The notes under the pieces are model-generated. The model saw only the letters and a program-made list of their open reading frames with translations, did not search any database and was not told the DNA's origin. A DNA stretch of 64,000 bases. It comes from Onthophagus taurus. Lineage: Eukaryota > Arthropoda > Insecta > Coleoptera > Scarabaeidae. The stretch lies in assembly GCF_036711975.1 (NCBI RefSeq), contig NC_091973.1, positions 4,526,001 through 4,590,000 on the forward strand, written 5' to 3'. The position numbers were made by a program, and so were the translations under genes. Position 1 is the first letter of the stretch, and each line of letters starts with the position of its first letter. Of this stretch, positions 1,810 to 64,000 are shown in pieces.

Positions 1810-4653
1810 ATGGATACGTCGCCGTTGGGCATTGATTTCGATGTGACCGCTAAGACCTGCAGGATGGACGCCTGTTTCTCTGCGTTCGACAAAAATGGGT
1901 AAGACACAATTTTTAAGAAATTAAATTCGGCCGAGTTTTGTAGTAGGGGATTTACTCAATTTTTGTGGGAGTGACGCGGTTAGGATAGCCAACAGTAAAA
2001 TGTTAAAACACGGTTACGTTATGTTATTAATAACTATTAAAGTATTACTGAATGTAATTGTAGCAAACGTTATCATTTCCGTTTAATGTTTACTGATAAC
2101 ACTTTTTTTTGCGAAGTTTTTAATCACACAAAGTATACAATACATAGAGAGAGATAACACGCTTTAGTTTAACGGTTCGCACGGTTCTCGTTAGTTATTT
2201 TTGTTTGGTTAGTTCTCGTATTTCGGTTTTTTCAAAAATTAGAAATATAAACAGTGTTGTGGGAGTAAATATAATAATGGTTATGAATGATTTCTAGCGT
2301 GTTAGATATTTATAGATTCTGAGGAAGTGGTGGGTTTTAAATGCGTGTTATAGGTCTATTATAGTATCTTTCTTGAGTTTGGAAAGGAGTTTTTATTTGA
2401 GATAACACCCTTGTGAAACTAATACATATCTAATTACGGGTCGAGTTCAAATTTAGGAGTATAATTTTGGTTGCTGGAAATTGTTGTGAAATTGGTAGGG
2501 GATTACACAAAGGTGTTTTTGTTGACAGTTCAATTCTGTTTAATCAAGTAACATGACCTTGGTATTGAAACGAAATAGCCTTAATTACTGATGAACCTAT
2601 ATTTGAAAATAATCGTGTGCCATATAATTATTACCGAAATGTAATTTGAAATGAACGTGAAAATGGTTGGGGAATACGAATACCAAGAGATGTTTTTGTT
2701 GAAAGTTCAATTCTGTTTATCCAGTAATATGACCTTGATATTGAAATGAAGGTCAATCGAGTACGATGGGATTTGGAATAATCCGGAGAAGGTCGCATCA
2801 AAGCCGTCGGAATATATCAGTGATAATTTAAATCGCTTCCCCGTATTTTCGCTTCCAATTAGGGAATTCGCGGAAACGGTTTCAAAACACGCCGCCGGGA
2901 GCCGAGTGCTCGACGGGTTTCCCCTCATCGATTTATTTGTCGCATTGGCACCACGAACCAGAGGGAATACCTGTCCATTTAAATTCAAATGGAATTTTTT
3001 AATAATGCACCGACACCACCACCGCGTAATGGCTTCATATTGAATTTTATTCCGCTCGCTCGACTCTCGGTAATGTATTTTGCCACGGGGGTCGTTTGAG
3101 TGTGTTAAATTGAAATTCAAAATGTCAAACCGAACGACGCTTTTGACCTTCATCGAAGGTCGCGCCCCTCTCGTTAATCGGAACGTGTTTTACACAAGTT
3201 TCCCAGCGCTAAAATATTACCATCGCGTGCCCTATCGAGCATGCTTCTGGTGCACGTCAAATAATTTGATTAAATCCGGGTTTGATCGATGAGGTTGCTC
3301 CGGCAACATTCACGTACCTAAATTGGGCTAATGCAAAGTTTTTCAGTGACGGCAAGTTGGACCTGGATGAGTTTCGATTAATTTGCAAGGCCCTCTTCAG
3401 GAACGACAAAGGAAAAATTTACTCTTTAGAAGAAAACAAATTAAAAGAAATTTTCGATATTTTCGATCAAGATGCTGATGGTTTCATTGACAGGGAGGAA
3501 TTTATCTTCTGTTGGAATCATTGGATTAAAGTCATAGTCCGGCCGATTTCCGCTTTTCTTATCGTAGACGTCCAAAATGACTTTATCACTGGAACATTAA
3601 ACATAAGTAATTGCTCAGCCCAACAGAACGGTTTTGAAGTCGTCGAACCGATCAATAGACTTTTAGAAACCGTTGAATTCGACGCCGTTTTTTACTCATT
3701 AGATTGGCATCCAAGCGATCACGTTTCTTTTATCGACAACATCAATCAAAGGGAAATTGATCCCTCAAGTCCCGTTGCAGCTGAAAACGCTCAATGTTAC
3801 GATACAGTTACGTTTGCAGGCCCCCCACCGATGAAACAACGTTTGTGGCCTCGACATTGCGTACAAGATACCTGGGGATCCGAGCTCCATAAGGACTTAA
3901 AGGTAAATTCCCCACCGAAGGTCGATCGATAACAATTAATCCTCTGAATAATTAAACAGTCGGAACACGTTATTTCTGCAATTCCGTTTAGTAATGATTT
4001 AAAATTTTATTTTATGCTTTCCTCGAAAAACTTAAAATAAAAATAAACGTGCACTTTCAAAGTAAAAAGCTCACACGTGACGCCTCCTGGGGGTTGCTGC
4101 TCTCAGCGGTTTTATTGGTGCGAATCTGGCTTCCCGGAAATTTAATATCACTACCCTGACTTTTAGCGGCTGCAGACGCATTGTACCGTTAAAGGTCACG
4201 AATAAAAGAAATTAATAAACGCAACGGCAGTCTTATAACCGTGTCTGGCGTTTTCAGGTCGTCGAGAATGCCATTAAAGTGTACAAGGGTACCAACCCGG
4301 AGGTGGATTCCTATTCAGTATTCTGGGATAATAAAAAACTCACCGATACCACTCTAAGCGCCCAACTTCGCCAGAAAAACGCCACCGATATTTACATCTG
4401 CGGCTTAGCTTACGACGTTTGCGTCGGTGCCACCGCAGTTGATGCTTTGGCAATCGGGTACAGGACGATTTTATTGGACGATTGCAGCCGAGGCGTTGAT
4501 TTGTTGGATATCGAAAAAACCAAAAACACTGTTATTAAAAACGATGGAGTTATCGTTAATTCAAACCAAGTCAAAGCTATGGTGGAGGGAAGAGATCGAC
4601 GACCAGAACTTGGTTATAAATTAGCTATCGAGCTAAAAGCTCATCGAAATTAG
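1810..4653 (+). CDS. Naam: Nicotinamidase with N-terminal EF-hands (Naam)
   Basis: Exons 1810-1898, 3347-3902 and 4258-4653 join in phase to a 346-aa protein. It hydrolyses nicotinamide to nicotinic acid and ammonia in the NAD salvage pathway. The N-terminus has two EF-hand loops, DKNGDGKLDLDEF (split by intron 1) and DQDADGFIDREEF. The isochorismatase-like hydrolase domain follows, with the catalytic Asp in DVQNDF, metal ligands in DWHPSDH, the catalytic Lys in VYKG, and the nucleophile Cys in GLAYDVCVGA. The EF-hand plus nicotinamidase fusion matches the fly Naam architecture. The ATG at 1810 is the first in frame and sits just upstream of the first EF-hand. AATAAA-like signals lie about 100 bp past the stop. 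In flies this enzyme affects lifespan and stress survival through Sir2; that is family knowledge. Confidence 0.96.
2493..2752. repeat. Diverged direct repeat in Naam intron 1
   Basis: A roughly 65-bp segment around 2514-2576 (GTTTTTGTTGACAGTTCAAT, then ATGACCTTGGTATTGAAAC) recurs with mismatches at about 2690-2750, offset by about 176 bp. It looks like two old copies of a tandem unit. The rest of the 1.4-kb intron shows nothing convincing. Confidence 0.7.
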
Positions 4654-5093: not shown

Positions 5094-5456
5094 ACGGTAG
5101 GAGTGACGTTTGCGCTGACGTAGCAGGTATATGGGCAGTTCTTGGAATAAGAGACCTACTTGGCGGAAGACCAGAACTGTTTGGGCCACGATTTTGGATT
5201 CAGCTGAGTGTTTCCATCGGGAGGTGGCCCCGAATTCCCGTGCGCAGTCACCAGACGGTTAGGATCTGCGCGTGGACGCCGGACTTACAGATCAATACAG
5301 CGTCGTCACTTGCAACGGACAGTCGAGTATGAGCGTCGGACCCGTAGTAAGTTTCCGGCGACCGTCGTGTTTGGACGTGCACGCCTCTGGGCGTGAAACA
5401 TCGCAACAAACTTAGTTTTGATAGCGACTATCCGGAAACGGGTGGACCGCCAGGAA

Positions 5457-8400
5457 ATGATCGTCCCTGCGCTTGTACTTATTACTATTTTACTTCAAGC
5501 GGTCACGTAAGTTAAAAAAAAAAGTTTTCAAATAAAACTTCTAACCTCCACTGTAACTTAGATGTTCCAGTATCAAGATCAACTTCAGGGAAAAGGAAAA
5601 GGAGGTGCTTGATCAGATCTTAGGTCCAGGACGATACGACGCCAGAATCCGACCGTCGGGAGTAAACGGAACAGGTAAGAACATCGACCTCATACCTATA
5701 TCTCTTAGAGAGTACTACATCAACAAACAACTTCCCCAAGTCACAAAGTCACTCAAACCGAAAACTGAGTTTCCCGTTTGGTGTGTGCGAAAAACTGCAA
5801 ATGTAACTTGTTGTCCATCGCTTTAGATGGACCTGCCATTGTACGAGTAAACCTGTTTGTTCGCAGTATTGCAACTATCAGTGACATCAAGATGGTAAGT
5901 CGTGGGCCGGTGACACTCTGTGCTGTAGCTTAGTGTAGAAGTGCTACACGAGACCAGAGAACGCATGTTTTATTGGCGGCGAGCGGCTACTGATTCAAAA
6001 ATAGGTTCTTTTAGGCTAAAAAGAAACAAATTTTGATGAAACCATTTTGCCGCTCGTTTTAGATTCCCTAATTTTACCAAAAAAAAAGTCGAAATTAAAT
6101 AAATTTTAGACAAAATTAAAAAAAATATTAATCAAGTCAACTAATAATTATATTATTTGTTATTTAAGTTCATCTAGTTAGAGTTTTTGCCGCTCGCCAC
6201 CTACTATTTGGGCCTTCGTTGAGCTTTTGATAGTAGGTTTTGATAGAGTTATGCTAAGAATGTACGTACTTTTGAGGTAGTGCAGCTCGCCGCCATTTTT
6301 TTGAAATTCCGGTGCCATTCTCTTGTCCGTCCAAAGACTAACAAAACCGTTTAACGTCAGGACCAACAAACAAGCAACCAGACATCAACGCCCAACCAGT
6401 CTTTCGGTAGCCTTAATAGTCACTGACCACAATTTTCTTTCTAATCGATATAGATGGACCCGCTATAGTGAATGTCAACATTTTTGTGAGAAGTATCTCA
6501 AAAATTGATGACGTCACCATGGTAAGTTGACCACTTGGCCAAGAAAAAAAAGGGAATGTCGATATATAGTAGTGCTCTAGTAGACTATTTATTATTATTA
6601 TTATTATTAAAAAATCCTCTTTCCACGTTCTTTCCCAACAGAGTAGTTGCTTGTCATCATAAACATCCGTTGGACTCCGGTGACCGACCAAATTTAAACG
6701 AGACTACTTCTCATTAAATTTTTCGGTCGTTAGCAGTAGGGTGCCAGCAACAACGTATTATCTTATTTTCATTTTCTATGTTTAGAAAGATTAAATATAA
6801 ATTTCATGCGTTTAAGTTTAATATACAATGAGAGAGTAGTTATTGCTGGTTGAGATAGAAAATCATATGCAATCACCTAATGAAATAATTGGGGGTACGT
6901 CGTGTGTTGGGGTGAGGTGGCGAAAGTTCGTAAATTTTGTAGGGGTTGACAGCCAATGCTCGATGTGATTGACTCTGGGCCCCAAAATGAAGTAAAGAAC
7001 CAGATAATTGACGTTTGTTTTTCTTCGCACTGGTACAGGGGGACCCACTGTAGTGGCGATCAACATCTTTCTACGCTCTATCAGCAAAATAGATGATTAT
7101 AAGATGGTGAGTTGGTCTGCCAGTCATGTCAAGTATTGGATGGATGTACAAGTCGAAGAAAGGCGGTGTACTGTTGCGCTACAGCAAATCCTCTTCCCTC
7201 CAATAACCACTAACACGCGGTGTACTGTCTTTTAAACTTCCCGTATCAAAACCTCTTTGCATGCACACTTCCGTTTCGTCTCTATCAAGCTGAGCTTCGT
7301 CTTCACTACGCAAAAATTGGGGAAAAAATTCTGTATATAACAGTTTTTATCTACTTTATACGCTGTATATATCAGGTCCACGACGGAAAAGACCAAAAAC
7401 TGTGTTGCGGTGTTGGTATTTGTTGCTAGTGTGGTTCGTTGGTCAGTATAGTAGCCGTATTTAAGCTTGCATGCGCTTGCATGAACTCACCTTAACTAAT
7501 CTCGTGATTTCATAAACTCGCTACTATTTCAGGAATACAGCGTTCAACTCACCTTCAGGGAACAATGGCTCGATGAAAGGCTCAAATTCAACGATTTTGG
7601 AGGAAAACTCAAGTATCTCACCTTAACAGAATCCAACAGAGTTTGGATGCCCGATCTCTTCTTTGCCAATGAAAAAGAGGGACACACGCACAATATCATC
7701 ATGCCGAACGTCTACATAAGAATTTTTCCATATGGATCTGTTTTATACAGTATAAGGTATTTTTAATATTAAGTACACAAACATCTTCAAAATGCTTGTG
7801 TACAAATTTATGAACATACTTTTATATAATATATTTTTAGAATATCCTTAACGCTTTCATGTCCAATGAATCTCAAATTATATCCTTTGGATCGACAAAC
7901 GTGTTCTTTAAGAATGGCTAGTTGTAAGTGTATATATAGAATTGTGTTAGTAGTTTTATTAATGTTTGTGAATTTAGATGGTTGGACAACGAATGACTTG
8001 GTGTTTCTTTGGAAAGAAGGGGATCCTGTGCAAGTTGTTAAGAATTTACACCTACCACGATTCACGTTGGAAAAATTTTTGACTGATTATTGCAACAGTA
8101 AAACGAATACAGGTAAAGTGGTGTAAAGATGTGTAAGTGTGATGTTATTTTTGTTTTATTTGTTTTGTAGGAGAATACAGTTGTCTTAAAGTAGATCTTC
8201 TCTTCAAACGTGAATTCTCATATTACCTTATCCAAATTTACATCCCTTGTTGCATGTTGGTAATCGTTTCTTGGGTATCCTTCTGGTTGGATCAAGGGGC
8301 TGTACCAGCTCGAGTATCACTAGGAGTGACAACTCTTCTAACGATGGCCACACAAACGTCAGGCATAAACGCGTCATTACCTCCGGTATCCTACACGAAA

Positions 8401-8901
8401 GCAATTGACGTTTGGACCGGTGTATGTTTAACATTTGTTTTTGGAGCATTATTAGAATTCGCTTTGGTCAACTACGCATCTAGATCGGACATGCATCGTG
8501 AGAATATGAAGAAGCAAAGGAGGCAGTGCGAATTGGAACACGCTGCGTCGATGGACGCAACATCAGACCTGATAGACACTGACAGCAACGCCGCATTTGC
8601 AATGGTAAGGCTCTTTTCGCTCTGCACGGGATCGGACAGGCGCATTACGCATTGTGTGTCCTTTCAGAAGCCTTTGGTACGACATCCTGGCGATCCGATG
8701 AGCCTAGAGAAGGTCAGGCAGTGTGAGATTCACATGCAACAGGCGAGGCCAAATTGTTGTAAGTCGTGGTTGTCAAAATTCCCAACGAGATCCAAACGGA
8801 TCGACGTGATCTCGCGGATAACGTTCCCATTGGTGTTTGCCGTTTTTAACGTGATTTACTGGTCGACGTATTTATTCCGGGAAGATAGCGAAGAGTCGTA
8901 A
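5457..8901 (+). CDS. GluCl: Glutamate-gated chloride channel subunit (GluCl)
   Basis: Exons are 5457-5506, 5562-5674, one of three exon 3 cassettes (5827-5894, 6454-6521 or 7039-7106), 7533-7756, 7841-7923, 7978-8112, 8171-8604 and 8668-8901. All phases fit and give 446 aa. This is an invertebrate Cys-loop anion channel of neurons and muscle, the target of avermectins. Visible are a signal peptide (about 1-17), the Cys-loop CPMNLKLYPLDRQTC, the second extracellular Cys pair (YCNSKTNTGEYSC), M1, the anion-selectivity PAR motif starting M2, M3 (TGVCLTFVFGALLEF) and C-terminal M4 ending STYLFRED. The Pro in SLPPVSYTK and the M3 glycines, where resistance changes map in other species, look wild type. 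An 8605-8667 segment may be retained. The 3' UTR probably runs past 9000. Confidence 0.97.
5827..5894 (+). CDS. GluCl: GluCl mutually exclusive exon 3, cassette a
   Basis: This 68-bp cassette is flanked by an AG acceptor and a GTAAGT donor and encodes DGPAIVRVNLFVRSIATISD then IKM. It codes for the start of the ligand-binding domain. It has the same length and phase as the two cassettes downstream, so only one can be used per transcript. Fly GluCl has the same three-way choice at exon 3. Confidence 0.94.
5975..6294 (+). promoter_or_regulatory. Complementary GC-rich elements between GluCl exons 3a and 3b
   Basis: The element GGCGGCGAGCGGC (5975-5987) is complementary to three downstream sites in the same intron: GCCGCTCG (6049-6056, 8 bp), GCCGCTCGCCACC (6189-6201, 12 of 13) and GCTCGCCGCC (6285-6294, 10 bp). 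The three pairings overlap and so exclude one another. This resembles the docking-site and selector pairing known for mutually exclusive exons such as Dscam. The RNA function is inferred; the complementarity is seen directly. Confidence 0.5.
6454..6521 (+). CDS. GluCl: GluCl mutually exclusive exon 3, cassette b
   Basis: This 68-bp cassette encodes DGPAIVNVNIFVRSISKIDD then VTM. It has an AG acceptor and a GTAAGT donor and the same phase as cassettes a and c. It differs from a mainly in its C-terminal half. Confidence 0.94.
7039..7106 (+). CDS. GluCl: GluCl mutually exclusive exon 3, cassette c
   Basis: This 68-bp cassette encodes GGPTVVAINIFLRSISKIDD then YKM. It has an AG acceptor and a GTGAGT donor. 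It is the most diverged at its N-terminal end and shares SISKIDD with cassette b. A short direct repeat, GCGGTGTACTGT, lies downstream at 7163-7174 and 7217-7228. Confidence 0.94.
8605..8667 (+). other. GluCl: 63-bp stopless, frame-preserving optional intron in GluCl
   Basis: The segment begins GTAAGG and ends TTTCAG. It is exactly 21 codons long, has no stop and starts in phase 0. Splicing it out joins FAM to KPLVRHPGD, as in fly GluCl. Keeping it would insert 21 residues, including SLCTGSDRR, into the M3-M4 cytoplasmic loop. It could therefore be an intron, an optional exon part, or both. Confidence 0.75.
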
Positions 8902-13588: not shown

Positions 13589-13599
13589 TTTATATAAAG
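13589..13599 (+). promoter_or_regulatory. TATA box of prohormone-4
   Basis: TTTATATAAAG lies in a GC-rich promoter about 75 bp before the start codon. Transcription start is expected near 13620. Confidence 0.75.
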
Positions 13600-13670
13600 T
13601 AGAGCCGTGAAGCGGCGCCCGTTTGTTGCAGGGGTGCACCGGTCGCGTCCTTTAGTCCAACGCCGCGACG

Positions 13671-14526
13671 ATGACCAGGGTGGCAATGGCGCCGCACCCG
13701 CTGCTCCTCGCGACGGTCGCGGTGGCGCTGTGTGCGGCCATCCCTAGGGCAGCCATGGCCATAGACCTCAGCCGTCTTTACGGCCATATAAGCTCCAAAA
13801 GGAACGGTAAGCATTAACGAAAGAACTTTAACCTTGAAACAGGGCGTGTCGGCGCGGAGTAAACCTGAAGCAACAGATGTCATACCATTGATTTTCAGGC
13901 GATGCCTGCCACCCCTACGAGCCATTCAAGTGTCCCGGGGATGGTAATTGTATTTCCATACAATATCTTTGCGATGGGGCTCCGGATTGTCCGGACGGCT
14001 ATGACGAAGACTCCAGACTTTGTACAGCTGCCAAACGACCCCCTGTTGAAGAAACGGGTAGTTTTCTCAAATCACTTTTGGCTAGTCATGGACCTAATTA
14101 TCTTGAAAAATTATTTGGGAGTAAAGCCAGAGATGCTCTTAAACCTCTAGGGGGTGTTGATAAAGTTGCCATTGCATTATCAGGTAATTTATTCGATTTA
14201 CTTAATTAATGCATCTTCCATGGAAAACTTTGATAATGGACCTGGTGATGCTTACTTTATTAGTAAGCCATCGAGGTCTATTATCTAAATCTGCTTTTTT
14301 TAATAAAAATAATTTTGTTATGTAAATTAAAGAATCACAGACGATAGAAGATTTTGGAGCGGCGTTGCATTTAATGCGCTCGGATTTGGAACACCTGCGA
14401 TCAGTGTTTATGGCAGTGGAAAATGGTGATTTGGGAATGTTAAAATCGTTAGGGATAAAGGACTCGGAACTGGGTGATGTAAAGTTCTTCTTGGAGAAGC
14501 TAGTAAACACCGGCTTCCTCGACTGA
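13671..14526 (+). CDS. Prohormone-4 neuropeptide precursor
   Basis: Exons 13671-13806, 13899-14183 and 14333-14526 join in phase to a 204-aa precursor. A signal peptide ends near AAMA. The predicted mature peptide IDLSRLYGHISS follows, closed by a dibasic KR; the bee peptide is IDLSRFYGHFNT. Next comes an LDL-receptor class A module (CHPYEPFKC to DCPDGYDEDSRLC) with six Cys and the acidic calcium cluster, a second KR (TAAKR), and a conserved C-terminal half ending FFLEKLVNTGFLD. This is the insect prohormone-4 architecture. The receptor and exact function of the peptide are poorly known. The 3' UTR appears long, with AATAAA at 16015-16020. Confidence 0.95.
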
Positions 14527-16020
14527 ACCATCTTCGACCCTGCTGCCGTCCTGTTTGCCCATCCGCAACCTCACGCGCCCCTCAGCAAGTCGTTTTATTC
14601 GTATCTCCCATACTGAGGATCCCGCTTAACCCCTCGGCAGCAGAGTCTTGCGCAGTCCGTCCCTCTCCCATCAGCGGGCGACGCGTTTCTGTCCCAACGA
14701 GCCGCCCGCGCCGCCGCCAAAAAAAATAAGAAAAAAAAACGCAAGTTAACAAGAAACAGCAACACAACAGAACTTATGAATACATATCAGCACCAAGGTC
14801 TATTTGGTCGAACTTAACAGATACATATCAATAATAAGTGTGAACTTTTTTCCTCGACTATCTCGGTGTTTTATAAGAAAAATGGAATTTTTCCTCATCA
14901 CTTTTTGCCGTGTGAAACGCCAGGTTTATATATAATTATATACATATACATAAAGTATATCGTGTACTTATGGTAATGTCGATTAGATATTAGTGATATT
15001 CGACGATAGTCTTTAAAGTACATTAATTATCCTTACGAAACAAACAAGCAAAAAGACAAAAAAAAGACACGTAATTATAAATACTACATATCATATTGCA
15101 TAAAGTTAAATTAAAAGGACTCCCGAGACAATTATTGCGGCACTAAAAATCGGACGTTTGGAGCACGCCGCGATTATGCAATCGTTGGTAAAGCATCAAT
15201 GCTTGCAAAACCGACAGATAATAGGGTAATTCGTCCGCCATGATATCTGTCGGTTCCATCGAGATGAGAGCTTCTTATTCGCCGTTTATTTCCAAATGGA
15301 ATAGAACGAACTTAGGGCCTACGTTCTTATCCCAACAGCGAATACGTTGCTTTCAAGACTAATACAGAACAAGATTATAGGCGATGTGCCTAACGCGGCG
15401 TGCTTTTTGTAAACGTCGAAATCATTGTGATTTTTGTATGTACATATCAATGAATAAAAAAAGCGACGCGCGGGTCCTGTTCTCCGTTTCGATAACGACC
15501 TGACATTTACCATTAGCGTCGAACGGGCCCGCGGATCGCGACGGCCCCTCCCCGAACAATACAATGCGATGGTAAAAAATGAAAACCGATGATTTCATCC
15601 TTTTATGACACTCAACGTACACAATCAGGCACGGGGATTTCAAAACCGTAAACAATCTAAGTCAATAAGGAAAGAAATACAAGAAATATATATAAATGTA
15701 TATTTTTTCGATCTTTGTGCCCGAAAACGCGAACTTTGGTTTAGTCACGTACACTATGCCTTCAAAAGAAAAATTTTAAAACAAAGGGCAGTGCAGGTGA
15801 CACTACGAATATTAAAAAAAATTATATACATAAATATATATACATACTATACGATATAATAAATATATTTCATATATTTATCGAAAGTTAACTTCAATAT
15901 ATATATATATTTTAAATGACGAAGGCTGGTTTACTATTATGTATACATATCAGATGTTTTTAAGATCATTGTATGTCATTGTATATTTGTTCTAAAGGAA
16001 ATTTATAAAGTCAAAATAAA
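14527..16020 (+). other. Probable long 3' UTR of prohormone-4
   Basis: There are about 1.5 kb of non-coding sequence to an AATAAA at 16015-16020. It holds a hairpin with 11-bp perfect arms (15209-15219 and 15245-15255) and AT-rich runs near 15820-15910. I see no other gene. Confidence 0.45.
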
Positions 16021-20400: not shown

Positions 20401-23400
20401 AGAACATTCTGTTTTTGGATATCAATTTAGGATTCAGAACATGCTTATGCAACATGATGGAGTATGTTTTGGTGCCGAGAACGGCTGTCTAGATCCTTTG
20501 GTCGGTTCTCAATGAGTTCGTGTCAGTCTCACTTGTTTACGTCACTTGATGCATGTGAGCTAATAATTATCTGTTAGGTGCCTTAATATTAATACTAAAA
20601 ATAGTTAAAACCGATAACAATAACGAAAATGATATTTACACATATCAAGAAATTCTTAATTTATTTTTTATACATGGAAAACGTGACAAAGTTCGTAGTA
20701 TGATTCCCAGATATTCTTTGGCAGCTCGAATTGAGGTGTTGGGACTGGGCTCGAAATAAGCCAAGGTATTCACCTCTTCCACTGTATAACCTGTATCTTT
20801 TTAACTTAATTCTCAAAAAGTGCGAGATGCCTACACCTATTTTGATCGTATCATCCTATTTTGATGCGAGATCGACCTATTTCGTTACTGTGTGGCTTCT
20901 CCAAGGTATTTAAATTAATTTTATACAAATATATCTACGCACATATTAAGCCCTACATAACACCCTTCCAGCATGGTTTTCTATAGAATCGCTCAACTGT
21001 AACAAACCTAGTTTGTTTTACACAATTTGTGTCTGATGTGCTAGATGATAGAGGCCAAGTAGACGTAGTTTACCTAGATTTTCAGAAGGCTGAATCATCA
21101 GTTGGATCATTATGTGTTGTTGCGCAAGTTGAGTTCCGTTGGATTTAGTAAACCTTTGATCTTCCTTATGGAGTCTTACCTTCGAGCGTCAGATACTTCG
21201 AACTGCAGTTCGTATCTTATTCGGCCAACGTCGGGAGTGCCTCAAGGTTCAAATGACATCACGGACTCCATTGATCGCGGTAAATTACTTTTTGCAGATG
21301 ACTTAAAAATTTTTACCTCGGAGAGCGGATAGTGTTGTTATTCAGAGTGGTTTGGATAGTGTTATCGAGTGGTGCGCGAATAACCGATTGTCTCTAAATG
21401 TGGCGAAGTGCGCCGTTGTTTCCTACACCAGAAATTCGCTGATACACACAGAGTACTGTATTGGTAATGAAGTCTTGCGGTGCGCTAATAATATTACAGA
21501 CTTGGGGGTAACTTTTGATTCAAAACTAACATTCATAGACCATGCAACTAATCTGTGCGCGAAATGTTATCGAACTTATGGTTTTATATATCGCAATTGT
21601 GAAGAATTTTCAACCGTTGGAGTTCTTACCATTTTTAATGCTCTGATTCGCTCGCGCTTTGAATACGCATCTTTGATTTGGCAACCTTTTTATGCTGTAC
21701 ATGTTAATTTATTAGAGCGCATTCAAAGATTATTCTTACAGTTTTGGCCTTACTGAATTGAGGTTAATGAAAACACAAAAAATGTGTGAAGAATTAGTGT
21801 TTATTAATTTGTTTATCTGAGCAACCGGTTTCGAAAAAATTACTTTTCGTCTTCAGGCGCAACGTCTAAAACGAACGATGGACAGAATTAAAAAACGCTC
21901 CATTTATTTTAAGATTATACACATATATATATACATATATATACAAACACACATCTATCCCAGTATATGTTAATAATTAAGAGAAACGTGGTCGGGTCCT
22001 AGGACCGATATATATATGTGTATAATCTTAAAATAAATGGAGCGTTTTTTAATTCTGTCCATCGTTCGTTTTAGACGTTGCGCCTGAAGACGAAAAGTAA
22101 TTTTGGGTAAGTTTAGGGTAAAGTATTATCGGTTGCACAGATAAACAAATTAATAAACACTAATTCTTCACACATTTTTTGTGTTTTCATTAACTAAAAT
22201 TTCCGAAGAATTATGGAGAAATACATTCCTTTTTTACTGAATTGACCAAAATTTATGTTAGATCGACGCAGTGTCGCTGATGTGTAGTTATTATAAACAG
22301 ATTTCCGCTGAATGCGACATTTTTACCAATATTTGGTCATTCATTAACAATAAAATCATAGAACACTTCACAATTATTAATCGCTAATATACCTTTTCGC
22401 CTTGATTACCATTCATTCTATGTATAATACTATTTTTCCATTTTGATATATTCATATATCTTACAATTATTTTTTGTACATTACTACATTTGTATTTTTT
22501 TTTCTTTTTGTATTCCTGTAATTGGGTGGAGACCTGTTGGAATAAAGCATTTATTATATTATATAATTTACTACATTTTTTGGTCAGCTTAACATTTTTC
22601 AAAAAAAAACCCTAATTATTTCCCAAACTATTAATGTTAAGTATAGGACATATAGGGTATAAAAGATGTAAAATGAGACGTCGAAGACGACTAAGTAATA
22701 AAATACGGGGGGAGCCATTTAAAAAATTGAAGTTATGGTAGTTCCAAATTTCGAAAAATTAACGTGCCTTAGTAAAGTGTCCAAACTATCTAGATAACCG
22801 TTCTTGGCACCAAAATCATGTTGCTTAAGCATGTTCTAAATCCTAAATTGATATCTCAAAAATCGAGTTTTTGAACAAATGTCTGCTGGAGCAGATTTTT
22901 CTAGAAAAATTCGAATAACTCGAGAATGAAGTTAACAAGTAAACCAAAATATGTATCTGAATTGTCAAATTTTTATTTTGGTCAGAACGTCTAATGACCG
23001 GTTTCGCTGAGACACCTGTATATTAATTAATGTGTCATACATCAAACTCATCCAATGCAGCGGCTAATTCACCAGGTCCTTCATATGTAGGTTGTGTAGG
23101 TTGTGGTGTACGACCTTGAGCAACATCACTGATAGTATTAACGGCTTCGCAAACTTGTTTAAGTACATAATCCCGATTAGCTTTTGCAGCGGCTAGCTCG
23201 GGATGACGTACGTAAACTTTCGAAGCGGTAAGCAACATGGTTGAATGTTTTTTAAGTACGGCACGTGCAGCAGCTAAGTCATCTCGTAATTGGAGATCTT
23301 TCAGTTCTTGCTGACGTTTGTGAGCTTGATTCATGAGATCGTTCGCGCTGCGACTAAAGTCTTTGATGTTTTTCAATAACTCATCTTGGCTAGATGCGTT

Positions 23401-52925: not shown

Positions 52926-53092
52926 CGGAGTGTTAATTAATTATCGTACCCGACGTCATCATTGCGAATATGCAACCAACATCGCAGTGCAATACGCATC
53001 ATGCGCAAATCGCGTATTGCAATACCAATACTGTGATTTTGGTTGCATACTTGCAATGATGACGTCGGGTACGATAATTAATTAATACTCTG
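52926..53092. mobile_element. MITE with TA duplication, copy 3 (best preserved)
   Basis: It starts CGGAGTGTTAATTAATTATC and ends with the near-perfect complement. The arms include CGTACCCGACGTCATCATTG on both sides. It is flanked by TA at 52924-52925 and 53093-53094. At 167 bp it is almost one long hairpin and has no coding capacity, as expected of a mariner-type MITE. Confidence 0.92.
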
Positions 53093-61998: not shown

Positions 61999-62050
61999 CT
62001 ACAAAGAAATTTCAACAAAATGTTATCATAAAAGAACAACATGGTCAAAA

Positions 62051-64000
62051 ATTCATCATAACTCATAAATTAAAAACGATGGATAAAAAAAGTTTTGACG
62101 AAAGTAGTTCATAATGAACCCATAAAACCTAATTCATAATCAGTTTTAACCTAGATGTTACTATTTCCTAGGAATAAAGTGAAAATTAACAAAACATCAA
62201 AATTTATGCTTTTCATAATAAAAAATTCATCATAACTCAAAAAATAAAATTGATGCGGTAAAGATTATGCGTGAAAATTGTACACAATGAACTAAGACAA
62301 CTTAATCCATACCCTATTTCATCGTAGCTTTCGTTACTATTTTATAATAAAGCAAAAATCATCAAAATATTAAAATTGAGTGTTTTCATTCAAAAAATTC
62401 ATCATAACTCATAAACTAAAACCGATGGATAAAAAAAGTTTTGACGAAAATAGTTCATAATGAACCCATAAAACCTAATTCATAATCAGTTTTAACCTAG
62501 ATGTTACTATTTTTTAAGAATAAAGTGAAAATTAAGAAAATATCAAAATTGATGGTTTACATAATAAAAAATTCGTCATAACTCAAAAAATAAAATTGAT
62601 GCAGTAAAAATTATGCGTGAAAATTGTACACAATAAACTAAGATAACTTAATCCATACCCTGTTTCAACGTAGCTTTCGTTACTATTTAATAATAAAGCA
62701 AGAACCATCAAAATATTAAAATTGAGTGTTTTCATTCAAAAAATTCATCATAACTCATAAATTAAAACCGATGGATAAAAAAAGTTTTGACGAAAATAAT
62801 TCATAATGAACCCATAAAACCTAATTCATAATCAGTTTTAACCTAGATGTTACTATTTTCTAGGAATAAAGTGAAAATTAACAAAACATCAAAATTGATG
62901 GTTTTAATAACAAAAAATTCATCATAACTCAAAAAGTAAAATTGATGCAGTAAAGATTATGCGTGAAAATTATACACAATAAACTAAGATAACTTAATCC
63001 ATACCCTGTTTCAACGTAGCTTTCGTTACTATTTAATAATAAAGCAAGAACCATCAAAATATTAAAATTGAGTGTTTTCATTCAAAAAATTCATCATAAC
63101 TCATAAATTAAAACCGATGGATAAAAAAAGTTTTGACGAAAATAGTTCATAATGAACCCATAAAACCTAATTCATAATCAGTTTTAACCTAGATGTTACT
63201 ATTTTCTAAGAATAAAGTGAAAATTAAGAAAATATCAAAATTGATGGTTTTAATAACAAAAAATTCATCATAACTCAAAAAGTAAAATTGATGCAGTAAA
63301 GATTATGCGTGAAAATTATACACAATAAACTAAGATAACTTAATCCATACCCTGTTTCAAAGTAGCTTTCGTTACTATTTAATAATAAAGCAAGAACCAT
63401 CAAAATATTAAAATTGAGTGTTTTCATTCAAAAAATTCATCATAACTCATAAATTAAAACCGATGGATAAAAAAAGTTTTGACGAAAATAGTTCATAATG
63501 AACCCATAAAACCTAATTCATAATCAGTTTTAACCTAGATGTTACTATTTTCTAGGAATAAAGTGAAAATTAAGAAAATATCAAAATTGATGGTTTTCAT
63601 AATAAAAATTCATCAACTCAAAAAGTAAAATTGATGCAGTAAAGATTATGCGTGAAATTGTACACAGTGAACTAAGATAACTTAATCCATACCCTGTTTC
63701 AACGTAGCTTTCGTTACTATTTAGTAATAAAGCAAAAATCATCAAAATGTTAAAATTGAGTGTTTTCATTCAAAAAATTCATCATAACTCATAAACTAAA
63801 ACCGATGGATAAAAAAAGTTGTGACAAAAATAGTTCATAATGAACCCATAAAACCTAATTCATAATCAGTTTTAACCTAGATATTACTATTTTCTAGAAT
63901 AAAGTGAAAATTAACAAAGTATCAAAATTGATGGTTTTCATAATAAAAAATTCATCATAACTCAAAAAGTAAAATTGATGCAGTAAAGATTATGCGTGAA
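62051..64000. repeat. 346-bp dimeric (higher-order) satellite in the BAP55 intron
   Basis: Starts of monomer A (ATTCATCATAACTCATAAA) are at 62051, 62397, 62743, 63089, 63435 and 63777: four intervals of 346 bp and one of 342. A diverged monomer B (ATTCATCATAACTCAAAAA) follows each A by about 174 bp. A and B share their first 15 bases but differ over most of their length, while successive A-B dimers are nearly identical. It is non-coding and runs off the window. Confidence 0.96.

Follow-up and report, generated by a model that had tools for sequence, protein, structure and literature searches.

Published docking/selector systems, in which pre-mRNA pairing governs the choice among alternative exons, assign a separate selector to every alternative exon and form pairings that enclose cassettes (PMC6071210; PMC8042237). 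Those closest to the locus described here are Dscam1 exon 6 and the 14-3-3zeta, Mhc and MRP1 clusters (PMC6071210), which combine one intronic element, several mutually exclusive complements and tandemly duplicated alternative exons. Competing RNA pairings can also be bidirectional, as in Coleoptera Dscam1 exon 9 (PMC8042237). As to the origin of competing selectors, copying of one arm of a stem-loop has been proposed both in the IRBIS paper (PMC4174434) and in PMC6071210. These statements, like those below on published GluCl genes, follow the accessible portions of the papers.

In T. castaneum, exon 3 of the glutamate-gated chloride channel (GluCl) is 68 bp long and has three variants, a number that the same paper gives as general in insects; how large a response they give, and the tissues in which they are used, vary from one variant to another (PMC10380907). 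Cassette 3c is called beetle-specific in work on Aethina tumida (PMC7017565), and exclusive use of one exon 3 cassette comes from published beetle work. In their accessible parts, the papers on T. castaneum (PMC10380907, PMC2064938) and A. tumida (PMC7017565) cover cDNA variants and expression, without intronic RNA pairing. In the open literature, subscription papers being outside its coverage, we found no RNA-pairing model for GluCl exon choice, which agrees with an earlier note on this DNA stating that no docking/selector model was known for the gene; as far as the accessible text goes, GluClalpha is mentioned there in a table of Drosophila ultraconserved elements.

In this study we focus on a GluCl gene in a 64-kb window, the whole stretch of DNA that was analysed (64,000 nucleotides). 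The gene is an insect GluCl, and a 146-residue stretch (8173-8610) matches the membrane domain of neurotransmitter-gated channels (Pfam PF02932, E 5.3e-35). The gene shares with those of T. castaneum (PMC10380907, PMC2064938) and A. tumida (PMC7017565) the presence of three 68-nt exon 3 cassettes (Table 1). Their peptides are related, and they form a tandem homologous array in which each cassette is in frame from exon 2 to exon 4. A tblastn search with the three cassettes over 5400-7700 retrieved only the known three (next best E 0.16), and thus no fourth cassette hidden in the 3a-3b intron. The same interval has no match to an Rfam family at E up to 5, and, as expected, neither viral contigs nor a single scan of contigs from prokaryote genomes yielded a GluCl relative.

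Table 1. Cassettes, complementary elements and motifs of the GluCl exon 3 region (positions in the window)
Feature	Location	Position	Strand	Remarks
Cassette exon 3a		5827..5894	+	68 nt, DGPAIVRVNLFVRSIATISDIKM; splice motifs, open frame with exons 2 and 4
Element A, G-rich arm	3a-3b intron, 81 nt in	5975..5987	+	GGCGGCGAGCGGC; arm common to the intron's three best inverted runs
Element B	3a-3b intron	6049..6056	+	complement of A, 8 bp; local A-B hairpin 5972-6062, z -2.55
Element C	3a-3b intron	6189..6201	+	complement of A, 12/13; also pairs with E
Element D	3a-3b intron	6282..6294	+	complement of A, 12/13; surrounding ~6277-6300 also pairs with F
Cassette exon 3b		6454..6521	+	68 nt; splice motifs, open frame with exons 2 and 4
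Site E	3b-3c intron	6908..6925	+	possible C partner; 9 bp perfect core 6915-6923
Cassette exon 3c		7039..7106	+	68 nt; splice motifs, open frame with exons 2 and 4
Site F	3c-4 intron	7155..7183	+	possible D partner; ~22 bp with bulges, -30.3 kcal/mol
Three TGCATG motifs	3c-4 intron	7258, 7468, 7478 (7258..7483)	+	candidate protein-based control

Within the 3a-3b intron, element A is complementary to B, C and D, and these mutually exclusive pairings go far beyond chance. The earlier note had described A as complementary to three later sites of the same intron, lying in GC-rich patches that stand out from AT-rich surroundings. Both observations are reproduced here: B pairs over 8 bp, C at 12 of 13 positions, and D over 10 contiguous bp (11 with the extra pair 5974/6295), while the four patches have a GC content of 0.85-0.92, against 0.17-0.49 elsewhere in the intron. 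Because the same bases of A are used each time, only one of A-B, A-C and A-D forms at a time, so the overlap and mutual exclusion claimed in that note are also confirmed. When the perfect inverted runs of the intron are ranked by stack score, the top three all involve A, at 28.0, 25.9 and 19.2. An arm with at least three partners appeared in none of 1000 dinucleotide shuffles at a stack score of 15, 17 or 18, and in one of 1000 at 13. Among 635 real windows of 559 nt, the length of the intron, two had such an arm at thresholds 17 and 18, both overlapping this site, and four at threshold 15, two of which again represent this site.

Word counts over the 64 kb give a similar picture. The 13-mer of A, allowing up to two mismatches, occurs three times, with C and D as its plus-strand copies and A as its minus-strand copy; shuffles have a mean of 0.16, and none of 100 reached three. 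The 8-mer GCCGCTCG is likewise present in three copies (A, B and C), against 0.36 expected, again unmatched in 100 shuffles. What is rare is the arm common to three partners; a single pair of such strength is unexceptional, since among the 2439 inverted runs of the window A-D ranks fourth (28.0, with two others at 27.0), A-C seventh and A-B about thirty-seventh. The fold of 5895-6453 suggested in the earlier note was run as 5894-6452, one base off the intron, and is moderately better than shuffles (z -2.06, 1/100). B, C and D look like copies of one arm, as in the stem-loop copying proposed in PMC4174434 and PMC6071210 (accessible text).

The docking/selector reading that had been put forward for exon 3 is only partly sustained. 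One element does have several exclusive partners. However, A, B, C and D are all confined to 5895-6453, so that A-B, A-C and A-D enclose no cassette. With A as docking site, we found neither one selector per cassette nor a pairing that encloses or exposes cassettes. Moreover, A has no partner above chance in the three other introns, where 136, 47 and 223 of 300 shuffles equalled the best duplex. In view of the layout and of these missing partners, A was rejected as the docking site for all cassettes. We also searched for a single docking site placed in either the first or the last intron and served by selectors in all three remaining introns, with a negative result (19 and 44 of 100 shuffles as good). 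Unlike the Dscam1 exon 6-type systems in the accessible part of PMC6071210, A and its three partners are not separated by any cassette, since they occupy one intron, and they do not provide a selector for every exon; the only pairings that span cassettes, D-F and C-E, were found post hoc and are known from one sequence.

The three states of A are predicted to be close in energy, with enforced-pairing minima over 5780-6600 of -197.1 (A-B), -196.1 (A-C) and -197.0 kcal/mol (A-D), and whether A-B or A-D prevails depends on where the fragment chosen for folding starts and stops. Growing transcripts were folded from 5828 onwards, as equilibrium folds and not as kinetics. In these, A-B stands at 0.92-1.00 for ends up to 6280 and A-C at 0.99 for an end at 6300; at 6320 the values are 0.19 for A-B, 0.55 for A-C and 0.29 for A-D. 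Pairing A-D then holds at 0.77-0.88 from 6360 to 6530, followed by 0.44 at 6600, 0.77 at 6800 and 0.46 at 7040. Across the three states the predicted accessibility of the splice sites is nearly equal (3a donor 0.25-0.36, 3b branch region 0.19-0.20, 3b 3' splice site 0.44-0.59), and direct splice-site masking is therefore unsupported. A helix joining the 3b branch region to the 3a donor, matched by 20 of 500 shuffles, was dropped because the donor region finds stronger partners in other stretches. The donor stretch 5893-5925 has its best predicted duplex with ~6166-6216, around C (-26.3 kcal/mol, first of 157 windows). Steric exclusion by a distant branch point near the preceding donor was also discarded, the AG-free zones upstream of 3a, 3b and 3c (56, 33 and 34 nt) being too short.

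When each of A to D was scanned against each other intron (12 element-by-intron tests), two outliers emerged, C-E and D-F, each equalled in 1 of 500 shuffles. Real windows reached the C-E value in 33 of 810 cases (9/336 when GC-matched) and the D-F value in 13 of 812 (5/194). The energy of the longer D (6275-6300) with F, -30.3 kcal/mol, was reached by none of 1218 real windows and none of 1000 query shuffles. Taking the C-rich elements with both following introns jointly, 994 real segment pairs with an identical layout included none that attained both values and three that attained the sum; GC-matched, the counts were 0/296 and 1/296, and 0/1000 for shuffled queries. The fairest and less biased test, which takes the best duplex anywhere between two introns, found D-F equalled in 10 of 260 layout-matched segment pairs and 1 of 42 GC-matched ones. 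Some weight beyond these counts comes from the fact that the best duplex between the 3a-3b and 3c-4 introns (i2-i4) involves D, which had been singled out in advance together with three other elements. Over all six pairs of the four introns, long-range pairing was equalled in 5 of 300 shuffles for i2-i3, 24 of 300 for i2-i4 and 50 to 234 of 300 for the other four. A second i2-i4 pairing of 11 bp, 6235-6245 with 7244-7254, was dropped after 21 of 300 shuffles (i4 arm against i2).

In transcripts ending at 7190, 7230, 7300 and 7400, folding gives 25.2, 10.1, 21.4 and 12.8 expected D-F pairs, which leaves A available to B or C. When the fold takes in the entire 3c-4 intron, D-F is lost (0.1, 0.1 and 0.0 expected pairs) and F folds locally, and the predicted pairing probability of C-E is 0.001-0.004. 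Being a post hoc discovery that disappears in complete-region folds, with a C-E counterpart that is nearly unpredicted, D-F is a lead and not a result. A layout with C and D as hub and A, E and F following 3a, 3b and 3c has D-F and C-E exceeding most real windows, again post hoc and with two different hub elements. The 3c-4 intron also contains an exact 12-nt direct repeat, GCGGTGTACTGT (7163-7174 and 7217-7228), whose first copy lies within site F.

The reading that we tentatively prefer, as possible rather than probable, is that competing RNA pairings in the 3a-3b intron allow several conformations, most likely modulating exon 3 use and not setting it in an all-or-none manner. As predicted for the growing transcript, A would pair first with B, briefly with C, and then mainly with D. 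The real hub would be D, which has a strong second partner, F, downstream of cassette 3c. Formation of D-F would loop out 3b and 3c, bring 3a closer to exon 4 and make A available to B or C; in the A-D state, the structure would include neither 3b nor 3c. As the hub, D would have the choice of A on its upstream side and F on its downstream side, as in the clade-specific pairings of Coleoptera Dscam1 exon 9 in the accessible text of PMC8042237, although GluCl, here a single sequence, would have one hub between cassettes and not a pair of docking sites.

Translated in the cassette reading frame, both 3a+3b double inclusion and exon 3 skipping lead to early stops, and any two 68-nt cassettes together should give the same frame shift (only 3a+3b was translated). 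As skipping and double inclusion of a 68-nt cassette are out of frame, a strict RNA switch is not required. Under the modulation model, the apparent strictness of exon 3 choice would come from frame loss and probably nonsense-mediated decay of wrong products, and not from the RNA switch. A fuller switch, with the docking site inside the cassette cluster, can be drawn: C and D would choose among the G-rich selectors A (after 3a), E (after 3b) and F (after 3c), D-F looping out 3b and 3c in favour of 3a, C-E enclosing 3b and A-D keeping the hub closed, all partly set by the progress of transcription. Such a switch would, to our knowledge, be without precedent in a ligand-gated channel, but we regard this version as very unlikely.

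The GC-rich pairing set may steer exon choice, or it could be a passive repeat. The latter would be a decayed MITE-like or foldback inverted-repeat insertion of ~320 bp (5975-6294), with A and D as terminal inverted repeats and B and C as subterminal copies, an explanation that is possible and only slightly less likely than the modulation model. Pairing of A with D continues inward past the core (5 of 1000 shuffles) and not outward (199 of 1000), so that its outer edge is sharp, as in MITE and foldback elements, and the two ends match as terminal inverted repeats at 13 of 14 positions. The interior (6057-6188) is very AT-rich, with a GC content of 0.17, and ATT flanks both ends, at best a weak candidate for a target-site duplication, being 3 bp long in AT-rich DNA. 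Moreover, two clear inverted-repeat elements exist elsewhere in the window (21763-22194 and 52933-53085). Against a mobile origin, the 64 kb contain no further copies of any of the four elements, and the ends are not mirror images, as B and C are oriented like D. If the patches do derive from a decayed mobile element, an insertion can mimic a docking/selector array, which would call for caution with scans that use complementarity alone.

The patches might instead be clustered sites at which one protein binds, either a DNA-binding factor of an intronic enhancer or an RNA-binding protein, the complementarity reflecting one site in opposite orientation; this is unlikely. The core is indeed common to A, B, C and D, each time in a different sequence context, and B and C contain TTTSSCGC, which we take to be E2F-like, while D contains GCCGCCAT, presumably YY1/Pho-like (5 and 2 plus-strand matches in the window, respectively). 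A short binding motif has no need, however, of complementarity that runs past the core, as it does in A-D and A-B (5 and 11 of 1000 shuffles); the A-B extension is inward, and A-C has no extension beyond the core (926 and 343 of 1000 shuffles). Quite unlikely is a further account, in which ordinary trans-acting factors set exon 3 choice through Rbfox (A2BP1)-type UGCAUG sites after 3c together with frame-based removal, the GC-rich patches being irrelevant to splicing. Of the nine TGCATG motifs on the plus strand of the 64 kb, three fall in the 426-nt 3c-4 intron, a count reached in none of 2000 intron shuffles, and the early stops of 3a+3b and skipped products would fit as well. Yet two of the three motifs lie within a 10-nt near tandem repeat, so the copies are not independent, and such control leaves the presence of A-B-C-D unexplained. 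We take TGCATG to be a putative Rbfox/A2BP1-type site that may act in splicing here; independently of the competing pairings, the cluster is a conventional candidate for exon 3 control. To chance clustering of GC-rich words we give very little credence: the window does contain other single inverted runs of similar strength (two at 27.0) and the 3a-3b intron fold is only moderately above shuffles, but the shared-arm statistics, from shuffles and real windows alike, already make chance unlikely.

GluCl is the avermectin target. Should intronic RNA pairing set the ratio of its exon 3 variants, switches of the docking type would no longer be confined to genes such as Dscam1, Mhc and 14-3-3zeta but would include a ligand-gated channel.

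Several other features of the window were recorded. A CU-rich 13-mer, AAATCCTCTTTCC, and close copies of it follow two of the cassettes, at 6612-6624 (~90 nt past the 3b donor) and at 7186-7198 and 7248-7260 (80 and 142 nt past the 3c donor). The inverted repeat at 21763-22194 is near-perfect, with arms of 57 and 97 nt, and is MITE-like or foldback; the one at 52933-53085 spans 153 bp with perfect 33-nt arms that start with TTAATTAA. Open frames at 13590-14530 contain IDLSRLYGHISSKR and an LDL-receptor-A-like cysteine pattern, and resemble an IDLSRF-like peptide precursor; the string IDLSRLYGH was not found in the open literature. Directly upstream of GluCl, 3270-4653 encodes a protein with EF-hand and isochorismatase domains, which we take to resemble a nicotinamidase. 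The window ends in two different tandem satellites, of 174-bp units at 1-1314 (7.6 copies) and of 346-bp units at 62047-64000 (5.7 copies).
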